A stretch of DNA of 64,000 bases from Parvibaculum sp. Its GTDB lineage: Bacteria; Pseudomonadota; Alphaproteobacteria; Parvibaculales; Parvibaculaceae. The notes beneath the pieces were generated by a model. It made no database searches, was not told where the DNA came from, and saw only the letters and a program-made list of their open reading frames with translations. Location: contig JAUSMV010000012.1 in the NCBI GenBank assembly GCA_030645235.1, positions 310,001 to 374,000 of the forward strand, given 5' to 3'. The translations under genes and the position numbers were made by a program. Of this stretch, positions 23,387-33,342 are shown one piece after another. The stretch's first letter is position 1. The number at the start of each line of letters is the position of its first letter.

Positions 23387-24037
23387 TTACATCTGCCAAT
23401 AGGTCGCGTAGGCAACGGCTTCCTGGAAAATGGTGATGTAGCGGGTCACGTTCTGGCCGATGAGATCCATCTTGGCCAATTGTGACAGGCGTTCGCTGGC
23501 ACGCTTCAGTTCGGAAGCGGGTACGATTTGACGGATAATACCGCAGGTTTCCGCCAGTGACATGAGGCAGACGTCGCGCGGATCGGGTAACTCATCGCGC
23601 AGCAGCACTTCGAGGAGGCGCAGCTTCACCTCGCGGATTTCCTTGTCGTCCATCACCGGATAACGGCGGGCCTTCAGGATCCAGAGGATGCGACCTTCTG
23701 TCTGGGACAGAATGTTGCGCTGAACCAGACGGTCGAGAGAGAGGTCGCGGACCTGATTGCCAAAGCCTATGAGCTGGCCGATCAGTTTGGCCGCTTCAAG
23801 TTCGAAACCGGGCGACGAGATTTTTTCGAGCACCAGATCGACGCTGCGTTCGCCTGTCGGGGTTTTGTCGATTACCCAGATACGGTCGAGATCGCTGTCG
23901 ATTCGGTTCTGGAGAGCAAGCTCCATGATGGCTGCGCCGATAAATCCGGCACTCACGGCTTCGCGCGGAATATCAACAAATCCGCCGTCATCGTCTTTGA
24001 CCGTAAGCAGAAGGAACTCTTCCGGAATCGTCAGCAT
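23387..24037 (-). CDS. GPP34/GOLPH3-like protein
   Basis: 216 residues from the ATG at 24037, with GGGGTGG 8 bases upstream; 38 further in-frame codons upstream are not conserved. The N-terminus LTIPEEFLLLTVKDDDGGFVDIP, AGFIGAAIMELALQNRI, DKTPTGERSVDLVLEKI and EGRILWILKARRYPVMDDKE are hallmarks of the GPP34 family. In eukaryotes GOLPH3 binds phosphatidylinositol-4-phosphate at the Golgi; bacterial members have no settled role. It lies divergent from the first kinase-like gene of the partner-switching cluster. Confidence 0.85.
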   Translation of the reverse strand: MLTIPEEFLLLTVKDDDGGFVDIPREAVSAGFIGAAIMELALQNRIDSDLDRIWVIDKTPTGERSVDLVLEKISSPGFELEAAKLIGQLIGFGNQVRDLSLDRLVQRNILSQTEGRILWILKARRYPVMDDKEIREVKLRLLEVLLRDELPDPRDVCLMSLAETCGIIRQIVPASELKRASERLSQLAKMDLIGQNVTRYITIFQEAVAYATYWQM

Positions 24038-24225
24038 AAAAAGCCACCCCAAAACGCGCTGTCGCTGATAAGAAGTCGCGATATTACGAGCCGCTTCCGC
24101 CCTGTCAATGAGGAACTCTGCGTGACATTGTCCTTTGAAATGCATGGACAATTTGGCGCTCTCACTTGGACGGGCGGCGCGAAAATGCTATGAGCTTGAG
24201 CACAAGTGCACCGTGAGGGAAAAGC

Positions 24226-24681
24226 GTGGCAGATGACCTTCAGATGACCCTGGAGCTTGACCTTGCAGAAGTGGGGCGGGTACTCGACGAGATGGAGGCC
24301 TTTGGCGAGGCTCACGACATGCCGATGAAGGCGCTCCTGCGCTTTAATCTGGTGCTTGATGAGCTCATCACCAACATCATCTCCTATGGGTTTGAGGGCG
24401 GGGCCGACGGGCGGATTGAGCTTCGGGTCGGATTGAACGACAATATGCTGATGGCGGATTTGACGGATAATGGCAGGCCGTTTAATCCGGCAGAAGCGGT
24501 CTTGCCAGACTTGGGCGAGACGTTAGAAGATCGGAATATAGGCGGGCTGGGACTGCGTCTCATCCATACTTATCTCGACCGCCTCGACTACCAACGTGAT
24601 GGCGGATTGAATCGATTGCGTATACAGATGAACGTGACGGCTACCGATACGGGGCTGAATGTGGGAAGTGATTTGAAATGA
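24226..24681 (+). CDS. RsbW-like anti-sigma/serine kinase (HATPase)
   Basis: 151 residues from a GTG. The GHKL fold is intact: N-box FNLVLDELITNIISYGF, G1 DLTDNGRPFNP, and G2 GGLGLRLI. Such proteins phosphorylate a STAS antagonist and bind an output partner. The 3' end overlaps the STAS gene at 24678 by ATGA, so it has its cognate antagonist. It opens the plus-strand arm of the partner-switching cluster. Confidence 0.9.
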   Translation: MADDLQMTLELDLAEVGRVLDEMEAFGEAHDMPMKALLRFNLVLDELITNIISYGFEGGADGRIELRVGLNDNMLMADLTDNGRPFNPAEAVLPDLGETLEDRNIGGLGLRLIHTYLDRLDYQRDGGLNRLRIQMNVTATDTGLNVGSDLK

Positions 24682-25019
24682 TCGAAATGTCGCATGAGCA
24701 ACGCAACGGTGCCCTGATTTTGCGCCCGAAAAAGCGTATCGACAGCAGCACGGCAAAGTCGTTTGAAGAGCAGGCAAATGCTCTGGTGGACGCCCATCCC
24801 GGCAATGTTGTCATTGATTTTTCCGAGCTTGATTATATCAGTTCGGCGGGCCTTCGCGTGGTCCTGACCACTGCCAAGCGTGCCAAGGCCGCAGGCGGTG
24901 CACTGACACTCAGCGGCGTGCGTGACAATGTGCGTGAAGTATTCGATGTCAGCGGCTTTGCTGCGATCTTCGGCATGCATGACACAGTCGATGCTGCTAT
25001 CGCCGCTTTGCAAAAATAA
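24678..25019 (+). CDS. STAS-domain anti-sigma factor antagonist
   Basis: 113 residues, a complete STAS fold. The phosphoacceptor region reads VVIDFSELDYISSAGLRVVLTTAK with the expected Ser-Ser. It should be phosphorylated by the kinase encoded just upstream, dephosphorylated by one of the SpoIIE phosphatases nearby, and release the kinase's bound partner when unphosphorylated. No sigma factor gene is visible in the window, so the final target is unknown. Confidence 0.92.
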   Translation: MIEMSHEQRNGALILRPKKRIDSSTAKSFEEQANALVDAHPGNVVIDFSELDYISSAGLRVVLTTAKRAKAAGGALTLSGVRDNVREVFDVSGFAAIFGMHDTVDAAIAALQK

Positions 25020-26935: not shown

Positions 26936-27016
26936 AATTGTTTCGTGTCATTAATCCGTTATACTTGCAGCATAGTTTGCCGGTATTATTTGACCTTATG
27001 TTATTCGGGCGATTTC

Positions 27017-27349
27017 ATGACTGACGCGGCTCAACTTAAGTCCATCAAACTTGTGGGGCGGCTTGATACGGCACGCGTCGGCGAGATTGAAACCGGTTTC
27101 TACGCCGAGGTAGGGTTCATCAAAGATAAATCGGATATCGCGATCATTGATCTCAGCGATGTGAGTTTTCTTTCTTCGTTGGGTATCCGTTTGTTGGTGA
27201 CGGCGGGAAAAACATTTTCGCAGCGCCAGCTTCGCTTTGGCGTCGTCGCCTCCAAATCACCTGACGTGATGGAGGCCCTCGACATTAGCGGTATTACGGG
27301 CCTCTTCCGCTTTTTTGATAGCGAAGAAGAAGCCCGCGCGGGTTTCTAG
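27017..27349 (+). CDS. STAS-domain antagonist, second copy
   Basis: 110 residues from the ATG at 27017; the frame is open to 26945 but that part is Cys/Tyr-rich and unlike the family. The STAS core reads [25 protein letters not shown] with Ser-Ser at the phosphoacceptor. It follows the Na/Pi transporter on the same strand and converges on the slr1659-like gene with a 4-bp overlap. Its partner kinase could be the 24226 or the 27719 product. Confidence 0.88.
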
Positions 27350-27684
27350 GCAATCGTCAGTTCAACAGCCGGATGCAACTTCTTGAGATTGGGCAGCGAT
27401 TTTGACTGCCACGGAATCCGCGTCGAGCCTTTGACGTCGAGACCGATTGTTGGCTGCTTGCGCACTTCGATCGTAAACTTGGCCAACAGGTTGATGCCGG
27501 AGCTGTTGAGAAATTCCAGACCCGTGAGGTCAAGCGTAATGCGCTCTGGTTTTGCTGTGAGCACGCCGTCCATCAAGGACTGGATTGGTGCATAGGCCTC
27601 AGTGCCGGACAGGCGCATCGTACCTTCATAAAAAATCGTCGCGCCCTCACTCCAGACCCGGTATTCGCTCGTCTTGATTTCCAT
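27346..27684 (-). CDS. slr1659-type STAS-like regulator
   Basis: 112 residues. The STAS-like core is [22 protein letters not shown] with a Ser-Ser-Gly acceptor site, but the N-terminus ([16 protein letters not shown]) and the C-terminus ([17 protein letters not shown]) differ from classical SpoIIAA and match the slr1659 superfamily. Last gene of a five-gene minus-strand operon; it should be the phosphorylatable partner of the kinase-like protein encoded just upstream. Confidence 0.82.
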
Positions 27685-27718
27685 AGTCTCTACCTCTGTC
27701 TCAAATTCAAATTCGGGG

Positions 27719-28267
27719 TCAGGAAAGCGTCAGCGTCGCGACTGACTGAATACGCACATTGGCGTCCGATGTCGCTTGCGAAAAAGTCCAGCCGATGCGT
27801 GCGCCATAATCGTTCATCAGCGTCAGAATACCAAGGCCGGAGCCGGAACTATCGGGATCGAGTGCATTGGCCTCAATCTTTTTAATGAGCAGATCCCCAG
27901 GATCCTGTGAGGTGAGTTCATTGAGCAATGTTTCAAACCGAGCTGCTGTTTCGGGTGCCGCGTCGTTGGTCAGACGGAAGGTAAATTCGTTGCCGTCAAT
28001 CGACGTGCTGAGGCTCACATCACCGCCAGCGCGAAACTTCACGGCATTCTCCATGAGTTCATTCGAGAGATAGGCGATGGAATGACGTGCATCATTGGCA
28101 TCAAGCTTTTGTGCTGATACCAGAGCCGCGTTGAAGTCACCCAAGAATTCCGCCGTGGCACCGCAATGAGCCCAGTTCATTTCGAGCGGGCCATCAAAAA
28201 GCTGCACGCGCAAAAACGTGTCTGTTGTGCTATCGGGCGGGAAAGGCGCACCAAACTGTTTTTTCAT
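27719..28267 (-). CDS. slr1658/SiaB-type HATPase regulator
   Basis: 182 residues. The GHKL-like features are an N-box [18 protein letters not shown] with the Mg-binding Asn, and a G2-like [20 protein letters not shown]. The N-terminal 50 residues ([20 protein letters not shown]) match the slr1658/SiaB group, which phosphorylate small STAS-like proteins. It overlaps the upstream phosphatase gene by ATGA and precedes the slr1659-type gene by 34 bp. Of the two such proteins in the operon this is the intact one. Confidence 0.82.
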
Positions 28268-30651
28268 ATGTGTCTCACCACCACCAGCGTAATGTCGTCA
28301 TGGATTTTCTGTGTGCCGATATGCGCCATCAGATCGCTGATGATGCCGCTTTTGATCTCGCCCGCATTACCGCTGCGATGGCGTAGCGCACTGTCGCGCA
28401 AGCGGTCAATGCCGAAGAGGTCGCCGTCCGGTCCTTCCGCTTCCGTCACGCCGTCGGTGTGCAGGACCATGATGTCGTCGCGATCAAACTGGATTTCTTT
28501 CGAGGCGACAAAAGGCGAGATGTCAAATTCAAGCCCGACAGGGAACCCCAAATCAATTGTGTCAATGCGCTCAACGTCTCCAGTCTTGCGGATGATAAGC
28601 ACTTCTTCGTGCTGCCCTGTCAGCGTCAGCTTGTCATTGGCGTAGTCGATGAAGGAGAGTGACAGATGTTTTCCGGTCTCTGTGCGTTCAATGTTTTTAT
28701 AAATCGCCTGATTGAGCACGTTGAGGAATTGTTTGGGATCGACTTCGCCTTGTTCCAGCAAGCCGCGCGCTACTGACTGTACCATCAGCATCAGCACGCC
28801 GCTTTCAAGGCCGTGACCTGTGACGTCGCCAATGCCAATTTTCACGCGATCTTCCGATTGCAACACGTCGTAGTAATCGCCACCCACTTCGTCAGCAGGT
28901 TCCATGAAGCTTGAAATATCGAGAAGCGGGATTGCTGAAAGCTCGGCAAGTTTGGGCAGCACCATCATCTGCACTTGTCGGGCGATGTCGAGCTCCGCGC
29001 CAAGACGAAGGTTTTCTCCCTTGAGTTGTGCGTTGAGCGACAGGATTTGTTCATTGGCTGCGCCGAGCTCCCGCGTGCGATTGGCGACCAGTTGCTCAAG
29101 GTTCTCTGTGTGGTCACTGATCTCGCGCGCCATACTGTTGAAGGCAAGCCCCACTTCACCTACTTCGTCGCGTGCGTTGACTTTAACGCGGACAGAATAG
29201 TCTTTGTCTCTGAGGCGCCTTGCCGCCCCTGCCAGATCGCTCAGACCTTGTGTGATGCGTTTCGAAATACCAAAGACGGCGGCGAGCACGACCAACATGC
29301 TGAAGGCCAGCGTGACAGCCTGCCACATCATAATGCGTGTTGTAGCTGAAGAAATTTTGTCCTGTGCCGCAAGGAGCGACGCATAGATTTCATGCTCAGG
29401 AACGATGAAGCCGAGCGTCAGCGTTTCCGGAATGATCTTCGGCGTGCCGTCCCAGAGGTTCGCGGGTTTCATGCGGCGCATGGCGACGACGTAAGGTACT
29501 TGCCTGCCGTTTTCGTTGAGCAGGATGTGTTCAATTACAGTCGTATCGTCGGTTGGCAGTTTGAGTGTGGCAACGGCTGCCTGCTTGCTTTTGAGGAGCG
29601 AACGCTCCGTGCCGGTAACGCCGGAACCGGCCGCACCGGAAGCTGTTGTCAGGCCTAGTGTTTGTTCCGCGGCGGGATTGATCGCCAGCACATTGCCGTT
29701 TGACATGGTGAGAAAACCAAAGCCCGTTTCGGCAAGCTTCACGCTTTGTACAATATCGGCGAGCTGTTCCAGTGTGATGTCGGCAGCGACCATGCCCGCC
29801 ACATCTGTGCGGTCCTTCGTCCAGAGCGGATGGAAGAAGCTCACAATGAGTTTACCGGTGATGGCATCAATATAGGGTGCGGTTGTTGTGACGTCGCTCG
29901 CAACGGGGCGCGTGCTTGGATCTTTGATCCAGCTCTGCCAGCCTTCATAGACGCCGGGAAAAAAGAAGTCCCAGAAGTTTGCTGCATTGTGGCCGGGGTA
30001 GAGCTTGTCGAAAGTTTGCGCCTGATCAGAATAAGGTGTGGTGCGCATGATCGGCATGGATTTCGGGCCGACATAATACATCTGTAATTTACTTGCGCCG
30101 TTCGCCATCAGGCTTGCGCCGAATGTGTCGAAGATGGCGCTGTCGTCGATCTCTTGTTGCACAGCAGGCAGCGGTTTCATGTCTGGTCCGAGGAGATAGC
30201 CCCAGACGCTCAAGACCGATGTGGCACCTGGTTTGTTCTGCGACCAGCCGCCTTTGGTGTCGTAGTCGGAGGGTTGTACATAGAAGGGATCATTTGCGAT
30301 GGCCTTGCCAATGGCATCGCGCGCTTCGGGGTGGTCGATGAAAGTCTGCATGGCGCCGGCGAGCGAACTTGTCTGACTATGCACGCGGTCTATGAGAAGG
30401 TCGGCGCGCAGAGCCGTCGTCTCAATATAGTTCTGCAAATATTCCTGACTGGCTTTTGTCAGACCTTGTTCAATTTCGTGCGTGGCGTCGTGCGATAGGC
30501 GGTTCACGTTCCAGAGCGCTATGCTGCCGCTGAGCAACAGATCAAACAGAACAGCAGCACCCACCACTAAGACAAACTTTGCTCGAAACGTTTTCGGCAT
30601 TATTTTTTGAAGTACGGTTTGCGATTTTGAAATCATGGCCTTGTCGTTCAT
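28264..30651 (-). CDS. Sensor SpoIIE/PP2C phosphatase (membrane, HAMP, Cache-like)
   Basis: 795 residues from the ATG at 30651, which overlaps the stop of the STAS-methyltransferase gene (ATGA). Membrane segments at about 25-45 and 425-445 bracket a large extracytoplasmic region with Cache-like character (YYVGPKSMPIMRTTPYSDQ, VAADITLEQLADIV). HAMP follows (KRITQGLSDLAGAARRLRDKDYSVRV), then a coiled coil and the phosphatase with metal-binding GDYYDVL, GIGDVTGHGLESGVLML and HTDGVTEAEGPDG. The layout is that of Pseudomonas SiaA. It should read an external signal and dephosphorylate STAS partners. Confidence 0.92.
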   Translation of the reverse strand: MNDKAMISKSQTVLQKIMPKTFRAKFVLVVGAAVLFDLLLSGSIALWNVNRLSHDATHEIEQGLTKASQEYLQNYIETTALRADLLIDRVHSQTSSLAGAMQTFIDHPEARDAIGKAIANDPFYVQPSDYDTKGGWSQNKPGATSVLSVWGYLLGPDMKPLPAVQQEIDDSAIFDTFGASLMANGASKLQMYYVGPKSMPIMRTTPYSDQAQTFDKLYPGHNAANFWDFFFPGVYEGWQSWIKDPSTRPVASDVTTTAPYIDAITGKLIVSFFHPLWTKDRTDVAGMVAADITLEQLADIVQSVKLAETGFGFLTMSNGNVLAINPAAEQTLGLTTASGAAGSGVTGTERSLLKSKQAAVATLKLPTDDTTVIEHILLNENGRQVPYVVAMRRMKPANLWDGTPKIIPETLTLGFIVPEHEIYASLLAAQDKISSATTRIMMWQAVTLAFSMLVVLAAVFGISKRITQGLSDLAGAARRLRDKDYSVRVKVNARDEVGEVGLAFNSMAREISDHTENLEQLVANRTRELGAANEQILSLNAQLKGENLRLGAELDIARQVQMMVLPKLAELSAIPLLDISSFMEPADEVGGDYYDVLQSEDRVKIGIGDVTGHGLESGVLMLMVQSVARGLLEQGEVDPKQFLNVLNQAIYKNIERTETGKHLSLSFIDYANDKLTLTGQHEEVLIIRKTGDVERIDTIDLGFPVGLEFDISPFVASKEIQFDRDDIMVLHTDGVTEAEGPDGDLFGIDRLRDSALRHRSGNAGEIKSGIISDLMAHIGTQKIHDDITLVVVRHI

Positions 30652-31805
30652 GCTGGTTTGCGCCCCGACGCGACCCAGATCGGCCATCCGGCATAACCTT
30701 TGGGATGGAGCGCAGCAAAGATGTGATCCTGAAAGCCCTGACGGAAACGGGCGATGAATTCGGGGCTGTCGCCGCGCTCAACGGCCATTTGGCCTGCGTA
30801 AACATTTTCCCATGCCTGAATGACGTCAGCGAAATCCTGCGGGTCGCCGTCGAGGTTGGTGACCATGAAACTTTCCATGCGGATGTCATCGAAGCCGGTG
30901 TCTGCCATGTAGCGGCGGCTTTTCGGGCCAAGTTCAATGTCCATCTTGAAATGCGCCCAGACTTTGGCGACTTCGTTGTAGGTCCATTGAATGCTCTCGC
31001 CGCGTGGTTCGCCGAGGCAATGCGAGTTCTTTTCATTGGTGATGTAAACGCGTCCGCCGGGTTTGCAGATGCGGAACAATTCTTTGAGGATGAGTTCTGG
31101 CTTGTCGAATACCTGTAGTGAGTGGCGGCAGGTCACGAAATCAAATTGATTGTCATCGACGAGCAGCGACGAGGCGTCGCCGTAAACATATTCGATGCCT
31201 TTGATGCCGAAGTCAGCGGCAACTTTGCGCGCGTAAGCGAGACTCGGTTTGGCATGATCGATGGCGACGAGGCGTGATGGGGTGAATTCTTTGGCGAGAA
31301 GGGCCGCAAAGTCGCCGATGCCGCAACAAATGTCAGCGACAGCAAGGCCGGGCCTCATACCGTGACGCGGCAGGATTTCGCGTTCGTGCCGCCATGTGAG
31401 TTTGGTTTGTGTGCGCAGGATCGGAATGAAGCCGCCGTCTTCGAGTACGCCCTGACCGGGATAGAAATCCTTGTCATATTGCTCGACGGAAATGTTGGGG
31501 CTGATATGTGCGAGCTTGGCGAATTTGCGGGCGGACCAGCCCACCACGCTGGAAGTGACGACCGAGATTTTGAGATCAGGTTTGTCGTGGCAGGCTTTGG
31601 CAACAAAGCGGGCAAGTTCGTGAAAGGCAATATTGTTGAGGCGTACGAGACGTTTAACATTGAGGTAGAGCGTACCGCTCACCTGCGTCGTTGCCTTTTC
31701 AAACATCGTGCGCAATTCGCCAAGCTCGTCTGCGGCGCGCGGGCTCATGGCCCCCGCCATCACGAGTTCCTGATTGTTGTCGTCATATCGGATAGTGAAG
31801 GACAT
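30648..31805 (-). CDS. STAS-like domain fused to a SAM-dependent methyltransferase
   Basis: 385 residues. Residues 1-110 resemble the slr1659-type protein (LYLNVKRLVRLNNIAFHELARF), but the acceptor NSSG is replaced by NNIA. A linker (QGVLEDGGFIPILRTQTKLTWRHEREILPRHG) leads to a class I methyltransferase: motif I VADICCGIGDFAALLAKEF, VAIDHAKPSLAYARKVA, then DFVTCRHSLQVF and CKPGGRVYITNEK. It sits second in the five-gene operon between a degenerate HATPase and the sensor phosphatase. The substrate is unknown. A methyltransferase output controlled by partner switching is my inference. Confidence 0.85.
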   Translation of the reverse strand: MSFTIRYDDNNQELVMAGAMSPRAADELGELRTMFEKATTQVSGTLYLNVKRLVRLNNIAFHELARFVAKACHDKPDLKISVVTSSVVGWSARKFAKLAHISPNISVEQYDKDFYPGQGVLEDGGFIPILRTQTKLTWRHEREILPRHGMRPGLAVADICCGIGDFAALLAKEFTPSRLVAIDHAKPSLAYARKVAADFGIKGIEYVYGDASSLLVDDNQFDFVTCRHSLQVFDKPELILKELFRICKPGGRVYITNEKNSHCLGEPRGESIQWTYNEVAKVWAHFKMDIELGPKSRRYMADTGFDDIRMESFMVTNLDGDPQDFADVIQAWENVYAGQMAVERGDSPEFIARFRQGFQDHIFAALHPKGYAGWPIWVASGRKPA

Positions 31806-31828
31806 TGGACTTACTTTTCCTGGCGCAA

Positions 31829-32335
31829 TCAGTATGTGTCTTCAAGGGTGAGGTCGGCGACAAGGCGAAGCTTGTCTTGCCCCATCGGTGTCAGTGCGAG
31901 TTTGGCTTTGTAATCGACGGCAAGCTCCAGAAGGCCGATGCGTGGATCAAGTTCGCCTTCGGCAAGGAGAGCTGCAACATAGCGGTCGGCAACATCGGCG
32001 GCACTGAGATCGTTGATGGCGTTGGCGTAGAAGCTCGTGATCTTGTCGTTGCAAGGGATGGTGAGTTCGATGCGGTCAACGGGACCCGAGCGCGAGACGG
32101 TGCAGCTTATTTCACCGCCGCCATTGTGGGCGCGGAAGGCTGTCTCGAGGAGTTCGTTCAGAGCCGACGAAAAGAGGTTGGCGTAGAGCAGTGAATCTGT
32201 GCGGTTGTGGCTCACCATGCGCGCGACATAGGTGGCGATACGGTCGCAATGGTCCCAATTGGCGGCGAAGGTGTCGGTGCCGAGGGCTATTTCCAGCAAT
32301 GGTGCAAACGGGGTGTTGCCGGTTGTGACAGTCAT
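31829..32335 (-). CDS. Degenerate slr1658-type HATPase-like protein
   Basis: 168 residues aligning with the 27719 product: FAANWDHCDRIATYVARM matches [16 protein letters not shown], and NELLETAFRAHNGGGEI matches [16 protein letters not shown]. The key Asn of the N-box is Thr here, and the G2 Gly motif is lost (DPRIGLLELAVDY). It is therefore probably unable to bind or use ATP and may act as a fixed binding partner. It is the first gene of the operon, 23 bp before the STAS-methyltransferase. Confidence 0.75.
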   Translation of the reverse strand: MTVTTGNTPFAPLLEIALGTDTFAANWDHCDRIATYVARMVSHNRTDSLLYANLFSSALNELLETAFRAHNGGGEISCTVSRSGPVDRIELTIPCNDKITSFYANAINDLSAADVADRYVAALLAEGELDPRIGLLELAVDYKAKLALTPMGQDKLRLVADLTLEDTY

Positions 32336-32457
32336 TGAGTTTGTCCTGCAAATTCAGTCGGATATGCCTCGGTCCCGCGAAGGTATCGGCTTTTTGTATC
32401 TTGTCTAGGGCGCTACGCTTGCCTATAGGCGCGGGGTTCCTTATCACAGTCGGCAGC

Positions 32458-33342
32458 ATGGAAAAAAATCTCAAATTAGAACGCGAATTGGCTGAAGCAA
32501 AAGCCGAAATTGCTCGGCTGCAGTCAGAGTTTGACGACCTCAATATGCTTTATGAGGCGACGATTGAGCATGGTGAAGCGGTCGAGGATGAGCTTGCCGA
32601 TAAGAATATTCTGCTGCAACGGACGCAGACACGGCTTGACGAGGAATTGGCGGACGCGACGCGCTATGTAATGTCGATTCTGCCTGATCCGCGTGAGGTG
32701 ACACCCAAGACGGAGTGGTTGCTTATACCGTCCACGGAGCTTGGCGGAGACAGTTTCGGCTATCACGAGATCGATGATGACCACATGGCCTTCTATCTGC
32801 TCGATGTGTGCGGACACGGCGTGGGGGCGGCCCTTTTGTCGGTGACGGCGATCAACGTGCTGCGCTCGTCCGCGCTGCCCAAGACCGATTTCAGGGACCC
32901 TGCGGCGGTGTTGGGCGCGCTCAATGAAGCATTTCCGATGGAAAAGCAGAACAATATGTACTTCACGATTTGGTATGGCGTGTATCAAAAATCGACGGAA
33001 ATCCTTACGTTTTCGAGTGCCGGACATCCGCCGTCGATTCTTCTGCGCGGTAGTGAGGTCATGCAACTTACAGCCAAAGGCGTCGCGCTCGGTACGTTTC
33101 CGGATATTCAGTACCGCTCACTCCCCCAAAAGATCGAGGCAGGGGACCGGCTTTTGCTGCTGAGCGACGGGGCGTTTGAGGTGGAATTGAGCGAAGGCAA
33201 GATGTTGCCTTTTGCGGATTTCGTGGCTTTTCTTGCAAAACCAGGTGGGGATAAGCCTCAAAATGTGCTCGACTGGATACGATCGATCAATGGAGAAGGT
33301 CCGCTGCCAGATGATTTTTCGCTGCTACGGGTGATTTTTTAA
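32458..33342 (+). CDS. Cytosolic SpoIIE/PP2C phosphatase with coiled-coil N-terminus
   Basis: 294 residues from the ATG at 32458; an open frame further upstream overlaps the divergent gene's leader and is not conserved. Residues 1-65 are a coiled coil (LKLERELAEAKAEIARLQSEFDDL). The phosphatase domain has GGDSFGYHEIDDDHMAFYLLDVCGHGVGAALLS, SAGHPPSILL, GTFPD and LLLLSDGAFEVELSEG. No receiver or sensor domain is present, so it may be controlled by a partner. Transcribed divergently from the five-gene operon across a 122-bp gap. Confidence 0.9.
   Translation: MEKNLKLERELAEAKAEIARLQSEFDDLNMLYEATIEHGEAVEDELADKNILLQRTQTRLDEELADATRYVMSILPDPREVTPKTEWLLIPSTELGGDSFGYHEIDDDHMAFYLLDVCGHGVGAALLSVTAINVLRSSALPKTDFRDPAAVLGALNEAFPMEKQNNMYFTIWYGVYQKSTEILTFSSAGHPPSILLRGSEVMQLTAKGVALGTFPDIQYRSLPQKIEAGDRLLLLSDGAFEVELSEGKMLPFADFVAFLAKPGGDKPQNVLDWIRSINGEGPLPDDFSLLRVIF

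Follow-up and report, generated by a model that had tools for sequence, protein, structure and literature searches.

What does a partner switch control when one of the proteins encoded in its midst carries a methyltransferase? The known switches of this kind have sigma factors, secretion or a diguanylate cyclase as their outputs. In a 64-kb stretch of Parvibaculum sp. DNA (hereafter the window, meaning the whole stretch analysed), five packed genes on the minus strand encode the parts of such a switch together with a fusion of an STAS domain to a class I S-adenosylmethionine (SAM) methyltransferase. Our preferred answer, to which we assign a probability of roughly 55% on the basis of sequence comparison and analogy, is that these genes form a partner-switching module of two paralogous kinase/STAS pairs, in which the active pair would control a methyltransferase output through competition.

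Gene calls were based on a list of open reading frames (ORFs) and on Pfam and NCBIfam profile searches. In the order of transcription, the operon begins with a kinase-dead slr1658-like HATPase, or pseudokinase, of 168 aa (31829..32335, minus strand, as for the next four; NF047703, 56.5 bits, below the cut-off of 100), followed by the fusion of 385 aa (30648..31805; NF047705 and Methyltransf_11), in which the STAS domain covers residues 1-112 and the methyltransferase residues 130-385, approximately. The third gene encodes a membrane sensor phosphatase with a dCache-like sensor, a HAMP and a SpoIIE domain (28264..30687; SpoIIE 9e-35, HAMP 3e-11), whose match to dCache_1 (5e-7, 30.1 bits) lies below that family's cut-off of 45; the fourth, a kinase-like protein of the slr1658 superfamily with intact N-box (NELMEN) and GSGLG box (27719..28267; NF047703, 164.7 bits, cut-off 100); and the fifth, an STAS protein of the slr1659 superfamily with a presumed phosphoacceptor at Ser61, in LNSSG (27346..27684; NF047705, 141.3 bits, cut-off 100). 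The genes are separated by gaps of 23 and 34 bases and otherwise overlap by 4 bases, as the coordinates give for the genes of the live kinase and the phosphatase; from the ATGA shared with the stop of the fusion gene (30651-30648), the phosphatase most likely starts at 30651. A further SpoIIE phosphatase is encoded divergently on the plus strand (32458..33342, in an ORF that opens at 32335; Pfam SpoIIE 8e-40), most likely from the ATG at 32458, and no membrane sensor domain was found in it by the Pfam search. The first-pass annotation, made from the sequence of the window alone, had described five packed minus-strand genes and a divergent SpoIIE gene; all six ORFs were found at the coordinates it gave, and each label was matched by Pfam or NCBIfam. 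The genome has no SpoIIE match at E 0.001 beyond these two genes, and its matches to the slr1658 family are confined to the two HATPases of that type.

Is this arrangement peculiar to one genome? With the fusion as the sole query, we gathered and profile-annotated 36 loci, namely the window, 22 loci on genome contigs and 13 on plasmids; near-duplicates remain among them (e.g., L026/L028 and L035/L036), while L015, L016 and L018 duplicate L019, L031 and L034 and were not counted. The dead HATPase, the fusion and the phosphatase follow each other in this order at every locus, with the fusion always in between, and all five genes are present in the same order at 35, the remaining one (L039) ending at a contig edge within the third gene. 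The five-gene association is thus far beyond chance, and a chance neighbourhood or a gene-finding artefact was rejected because the module recurs in this way, as the first-pass annotation had suggested should be looked for. The hosts are, according to their records, mostly Alphaproteobacteria, including Sinorhizobium meliloti 1021, which carries all five genes on pSymB, and Roseibium; three metagenome-assembled genomes (MAGs) are labelled as gammaproteobacterial (L020), acidobacterial (L038) and Desulfobacteraceae (L039).

The module is nonetheless rare across the Alphaproteobacteria and common in some rhizobia. The fusion query matched two of 61 genomes, the window's own and one of 26 congeners, and four of 385 Alphaproteobacteria, the window's own and three from a single other genus (up to five candidates being scored per genome). 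Over genome contigs it yielded the 22 loci mentioned, in a two-pattern scan that misses many and in which S. meliloti is not represented, and among 72,556 plasmid records it matched 120, from Sinorhizobium, Rhizobium, Ensifer, Aminobacter and Phyllobacterium, of which 13 were read. In one Rhizobium jaguaris plasmid (NZ_CP032695.1), tblastn gives two places for the fusion, one of which was read. A further genome, G110 (L017), has an identical gene order. When 240 Alphaproteobacteria were scanned for slr1659, 32 had some match, mostly weak, and the cut-off was passed in two genomes only, the window's own and G110; both carry the module, and as only one of them is not the window's own, this makes one independent case of linkage.

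Does the methyltransferase really carry an STAS domain? Residues 3-106 of the fusion match the slr1659 superfamily (NF047705) with 37.6 bits and E 2e-9, below the cut-off of 100. A profile-profile comparison (hhalign) of 16 fused domains with 13 free slr1659 proteins gave 97.1% (E 7e-11, 102 columns), while the fused-STAS profile against the HATPase profile, as a control, gave 0.1%. In the structure of the fusion predicted from 23 sequences (pLDDT 85.4, pTM 0.71), residues 1-110 run through strand-strand-helix-strand-helix-strand-helix-strand, which is the order of the STAS fold. Profile comparison and predicted topology thus support the earlier description of the N-terminal domain as STAS-like and place it as a remote slr1659 relative below the family cut-off. 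Sequence searches with the fused domain against solved structures returned no credible STAS relative, although anti-sigma antagonists are reached from the set of free slr1659 proteins; among the matches listed from a fold search with the entire fusion there is no STAS structure, which is uninformative on this point, since methyltransferases fill the lists. The position of the phosphoacceptor is occupied in the fusion by Asn58 and, in the alignment of the 36 loci, by Asn at 31, Ser at three (L039, L080, L083), Thr at one (L038) and Ala at one (L082).

The second half of the putative inactive pair is the HATPase of the first gene. Its AlphaFold2 model (pLDDT 89.7) finds, among the 50 fold-search matches listed, the highest query-normalised TM values with SiaB in the SiaB-SiaC complex 6kko (0.61-0.64), while the lowest E-values belong to SpoIIAB and only three matches pass E 0.001. 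The Glu of the N-box is present at all 36 loci and its Asn at none, being replaced by Thr (22), Val (8), Met (3), Ile (2) or Leu (1), and the SGLG box of the live kinase was found at none of them, with a residual GLG in L026-L028; judged by these motifs, the protein is kinase-dead. Homologues from other loci are likewise remote relatives in their NF047703 scores (27.8 bits in L041, 23.3 in L038 and 45.3 in L039). At two loci (L042:11450-11965 and L078:11459-11977) the public record gives the pseudokinase the name 'ubiquinone biosynthesis methyltransferase UbiE', probably a carry-over from the neighbouring gene, and in these two annotated related records the label hides the pseudokinase.

The other pair looks intact. 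The live kinase has the N-box Asn in 35 of 35 cases and retains the SGLG box, and LNSSG, with Ser61, is found in all 36 aligned free slr1659 proteins, which come from 35 loci (L038 contributes two and L039 none). This motif aligns with the SiaC peptide LLYLNTSSIK, in which T68 is phosphorylated (PMC7647112). The two slr1659 proteins of the acidobacterial L038 (7038-7379 and 12316-12741) score 115.4 and 80.2 bits, the latter below the cut-off, and the gene of the first lies directly before that of the dead HATPase, as if there were one free STAS protein per pair.

By profile scores and profile comparison, the STAS domains of slr1659 type and the HATPases of slr1658 type each form a paralogous pair. 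This bears on ordinary co-inheritance, in which a metabolic methyltransferase would by accident lie in one operon with a SiaABC-like switch and carry an STAS-like domain that is inert. Divergence is indeed faster in the fused STAS domain than in the enzyme, and related methyltransferases without an STAS domain exist away from these regulators, two of them inside the window, as such co-inheritance would allow; against it stand the pairing itself and the conservation of the gene order in 35 of the 36 loci over Alphaproteobacteria, an acidobacterial MAG and a desulfobacterial one. We consider co-inheritance very improbable.

If the fusion is more than a passenger, is its enzyme a working one? Methyltransf_11 matches residues 158-255 (E 6e-19), and D158, G162, G164, D183 and D210 are identical in the alignment of all 36 loci; with these checked residues of the SAM site invariant, a SAM enzyme has been kept. 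For identities and distance correlations the set was reduced by hand from 36 to 23 loci, by omission of L019, L023, L027, L028, L030, L032-L035, L039, L078, L082 and L083, three of which have an unusual phosphosite. Mean pairwise identity is highest, of all parts measured, in the methyltransferase domain (0.747), ahead of the PP2C domain (0.669), the free slr1659 protein (0.631), the sensor (0.567), the live kinase (0.471), the fused STAS domain (0.466) and the dead HATPase (0.387). Regulators that evolve faster around a strictly conserved enzyme are the pattern that an enzyme output would give. The proposal of the first-pass annotation that the methyltransferase is the output is thus strengthened by conservation and by the invariant SAM residues, whereas its other part, that partner switching drives the enzyme, is something we infer.

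As to the substrate, the domain resembles, by sequence and fold, 3mgg and small-molecule enzymes of the phosphoethanolamine and UbiE/UbiG types. The matched chain of 3mgg, from Methanosarcina mazei, is a methyltransferase alone, and the title of the entry gives no substrate and hence suggests none for the enzyme of the fusion. An identity as UbiE was rejected, as the UbiE/MenG equivalog cut-offs are missed (61.7 bits against 235 and 61.4 against 216), and so was a role in a defence system, for which PADLOC gave only a 139-residue overlap of the methyltransferase with mad2 (E 4e-20) and no match for the other four proteins. The enzyme could instead modify a member of its own module, e.g. the sensor phosphatase, in an adaptation comparable to the methylation of chemoreceptors: the fusion gene overlaps that of the sensor-HAMP protein, and its constant neighbours over the 36 loci all belong to the module itself. 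Yet the resemblance of the domain to many small-molecule methyltransferases speaks against this, and we consider self-modification quite unlikely.

How might the switch reach the enzyme? By analogy with SiaA/SiaB/SiaC, Ser61 of the slr1659-type STAS protein would be phosphorylated by the slr1658-type kinase of the active pair and freed of its phosphate by the sensor-HAMP-SpoIIE phosphatase of the membrane, once the periplasmic sensor of the latter is triggered; the signal is presumably a small molecule that binds to this sensor. In the inactive pair, the kinase-dead HATPase may bind the STAS domain that carries the methyltransferase and is mostly non-phosphorylatable. Unphosphorylated slr1659 protein could then compete for the dead HATPase and so alter the state of the methyltransferase; in the reverse option, it would replace the STAS-methyltransferase on the live kinase.

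Partial distance correlations, from which the distances of the enzyme, the sensor and the PP2C domain were removed, bear on this partner exchange. The dead HATPase correlates with the fused STAS domain (0.38) and with the free slr1659 protein (0.36), while the two STAS partners do not correlate with each other (0.05), the pattern expected of a HATPase that meets two STAS partners which do not meet each other; when loci are dropped, the values range from 0.30 to 0.39 for the dead HATPase with the fused STAS domain and from -0.08 to 0.05 for the two STAS partners.

Several observations weigh against the competition of a live and a dead pair around a single enzyme. The correlation between the dead HATPase and the live kinase is just as high (0.38), and that of the live kinase with the free slr1659 protein, a pair expected to interact, only 0.27, with 0.23 for the fused STAS domain and the live kinase. 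Omitting three loci lowers the value for the dead HATPase and the fused STAS domain to 0.30. As related sequences are not independent and shared ancestry partly remains, these correlations are weak evidence for partner exchange. The loss of the phosphosite in the fused STAS domain is, moreover, not universal, Ser, Thr or Ala being found in place of Asn at three, one and one of the 36 loci, respectively, and a GGDEF-EAL gene accompanies the module at 12 of them, so that the methyltransferase may not be the only output.

The genes around the module were counted over the 36 loci, whose flanks are of unequal length. A second SpoIIE gene lies within about 3 kb at 21 loci, divergent at 19 and codirectional in L038 and L039. 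In its place, 12 loci, all plasmid-borne, have the GGDEF-EAL gene just upstream and in the same direction as the module (e.g., L041:9689-11383 and L042:9742-11301), and 12 of the 13 plasmid loci read carry it beside the methyltransferase module; the remaining three of the 36 (L026-L028) have neither gene. Both domains of this gene have Pfam support in five of the 12 (L041, L042, L079, L080, L083) and were assigned by similarity in the others, and the gene is one ORF with AGDEF and EAL motifs in 11, being split over two frames in L074. Type VI secretion genes are found near the module at eight loci (L021-L025, L029, L030, L043), in records of Rhizobium, Mesorhizobium and Roseibium, where the module lies inside or near the clusters (e.g., L043:1-25149); at selected loci Pfam supports the assignment of TssA, TssC, a gp25-like protein, TssF, TssG, FHA and Hcp, the other assignments being made by similarity. 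A search of the window's genome for TssC gave no match, and with type VI genes near only eight loci, type VI secretion was rejected as the general output. In the type VI secretion system Mim1 of Rhizobium etli, the methyltransferase-like Re87 is related to a chromosomal methyltransferase (PMC10215855), and the accessible part of that paper contains no link between Re87 and the present module.

Such neighbours raise the question of whether the fusion is an output at all. The methyltransferase could sense SAM or a metabolite, or bind it without turnover, and bias the kinases through its STAS domain, in an input or feedback role, with the output lying elsewhere, in an RsbW-like kinase, cyclic di-GMP (c-di-GMP) or secretion. 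In the flanking genes as clustered before the plasmid loci were added, only type VI genes and ABC-transporter ATPases recur across lineages outside the module, and the positions of the GGDEF-EAL and type VI genes described above fit this alternative too. However, the invariance of the SAM-motif residues checked and the highest conservation of all stretches measured fit a working enzyme with one fixed substrate, and type VI secretion is not the general output because the window's genome lacks a TssC match; we therefore hold an input or feedback role to be unlikely. The neighbourhood points to possible inputs or joint outputs and to no common substrate. Returning to the competing pairs, we tentatively suggest, at slightly less than even odds, that the dead HATPase and the mostly non-phosphorylatable STAS-methyltransferase form a pseudo-pair which copies and competes with the live one, that the periplasmic sensor phosphatase thereby sets a SAM-dependent methylation, and that in some lineages of rhizobia and Roseibium the module has also been connected to c-di-GMP turnover or type VI secretion.

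Other genes near the module vary. An RsbV/RsbW-like pair is found at ten of the 36 loci, the window included, where an RsbW-like HATPase, i.e. a second kinase (24226..24681, plus strand; HATPase_c_2 1e-20), and its partner, an RsbV-like STAS protein (24678..25019, plus strand; STAS 4e-22), may constitute an accessory input pair. Divergent from the RsbW-like gene is a GPP34-family gene (23387-24151), an arrangement seen also at L040:5902-6567; the gene has no further match in the DNA analysed for the other 34 loci. Between a Na/Pi cotransporter gene and the operon lies a gene for a further STAS protein (26945-27349), convergent with the slr1659 gene and overlapping it by 4 bases. A link to phosphate uptake, considered because transport genes, the cotransporter among them, lie close to the operon in the window, was rejected, as the cotransporter profile is unmatched at the other loci searched, including the nearest relative (L015). 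In a Labrenzia strain, TfuA and YcaO genes near the module (L026:15049-17000) possibly belong to a peptide-modification cluster.

No description of this module was found among the titles and opening lines of abstracts listed in searches of an open-access library, and the term 'methyltransferase' is absent from the main text of a review of STAS domains (PMC8256260). If our reading is right, a partner switch that ends on a methyltransferase would represent a new class of output, and its pair of dead kinase and dead substrate would show how such switches gain new enzymes. As a genetic model that carries all five genes, S. meliloti 1021 is where control by the switch can be tested.

How, then, does the module compare with known systems? 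In the RsbU-RsbV-RsbW and SpoIIE-SpoIIAA-SpoIIAB switches, a PP2C phosphatase, a GHKL kinase and an STAS antagonist act in a common logic. The module likewise encodes these three kinds of protein together, and the window adds an RsbW/RsbV-like pair and two SpoIIE genes; unlike in those switches, the proposed output is an enzyme, and no sigma-factor target was seen, although none was searched for. In the slr1658/slr1659 superfamily, the live kinase exceeds the cut-off of NF047703 and the free STAS protein that of NF047705, whereas the dead HATPase and the fused STAS domain are remote members below these cut-offs. Synechocystis is reported to recover less well from iron limitation when slr1658 is disrupted (cited in PMC7555055), and the accessible part of that paper makes no mention of a methyltransferase fusion.

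The closest parallel in layout is SiaABCD of Pseudomonas aeruginosa, with which the module shares a HAMP-SpoIIE phosphatase, a HATPase-fold kinase and an STAS protein encoded together, the phosphosite LN[T/S]S and an enzyme as output, SiaC binding and activating the diguanylate cyclase SiaD (PMC8457831, PMC7647112). Unlike SiaABCD, the module has an additional HATPase, which is kinase-dead, and an additional STAS domain, to which its enzyme, a methyltransferase, is covalently joined. The first-pass annotation had seen in it the layout of SiaABC with SiaD replaced, and this description is not supported: the live kinase reaches 12.2 bits (E 0.098) against SiaB (NF038262, cut-off 85), with 23.7 bits for its acidobacterial homologue, the phosphatase 120.4 bits against the SiaA equivalog (NF038263, cut-off 700), over its HAMP-PP2C part only, and while no GGDEF gene corresponding to SiaD is present among the window's five operon genes, most of the plasmid loci read have a GGDEF-EAL gene beside the methyltransferase. 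By its family scores the module is not a member of SiaABCD, and by its composition it appears to work like SiaABCD or an Rsb switch.

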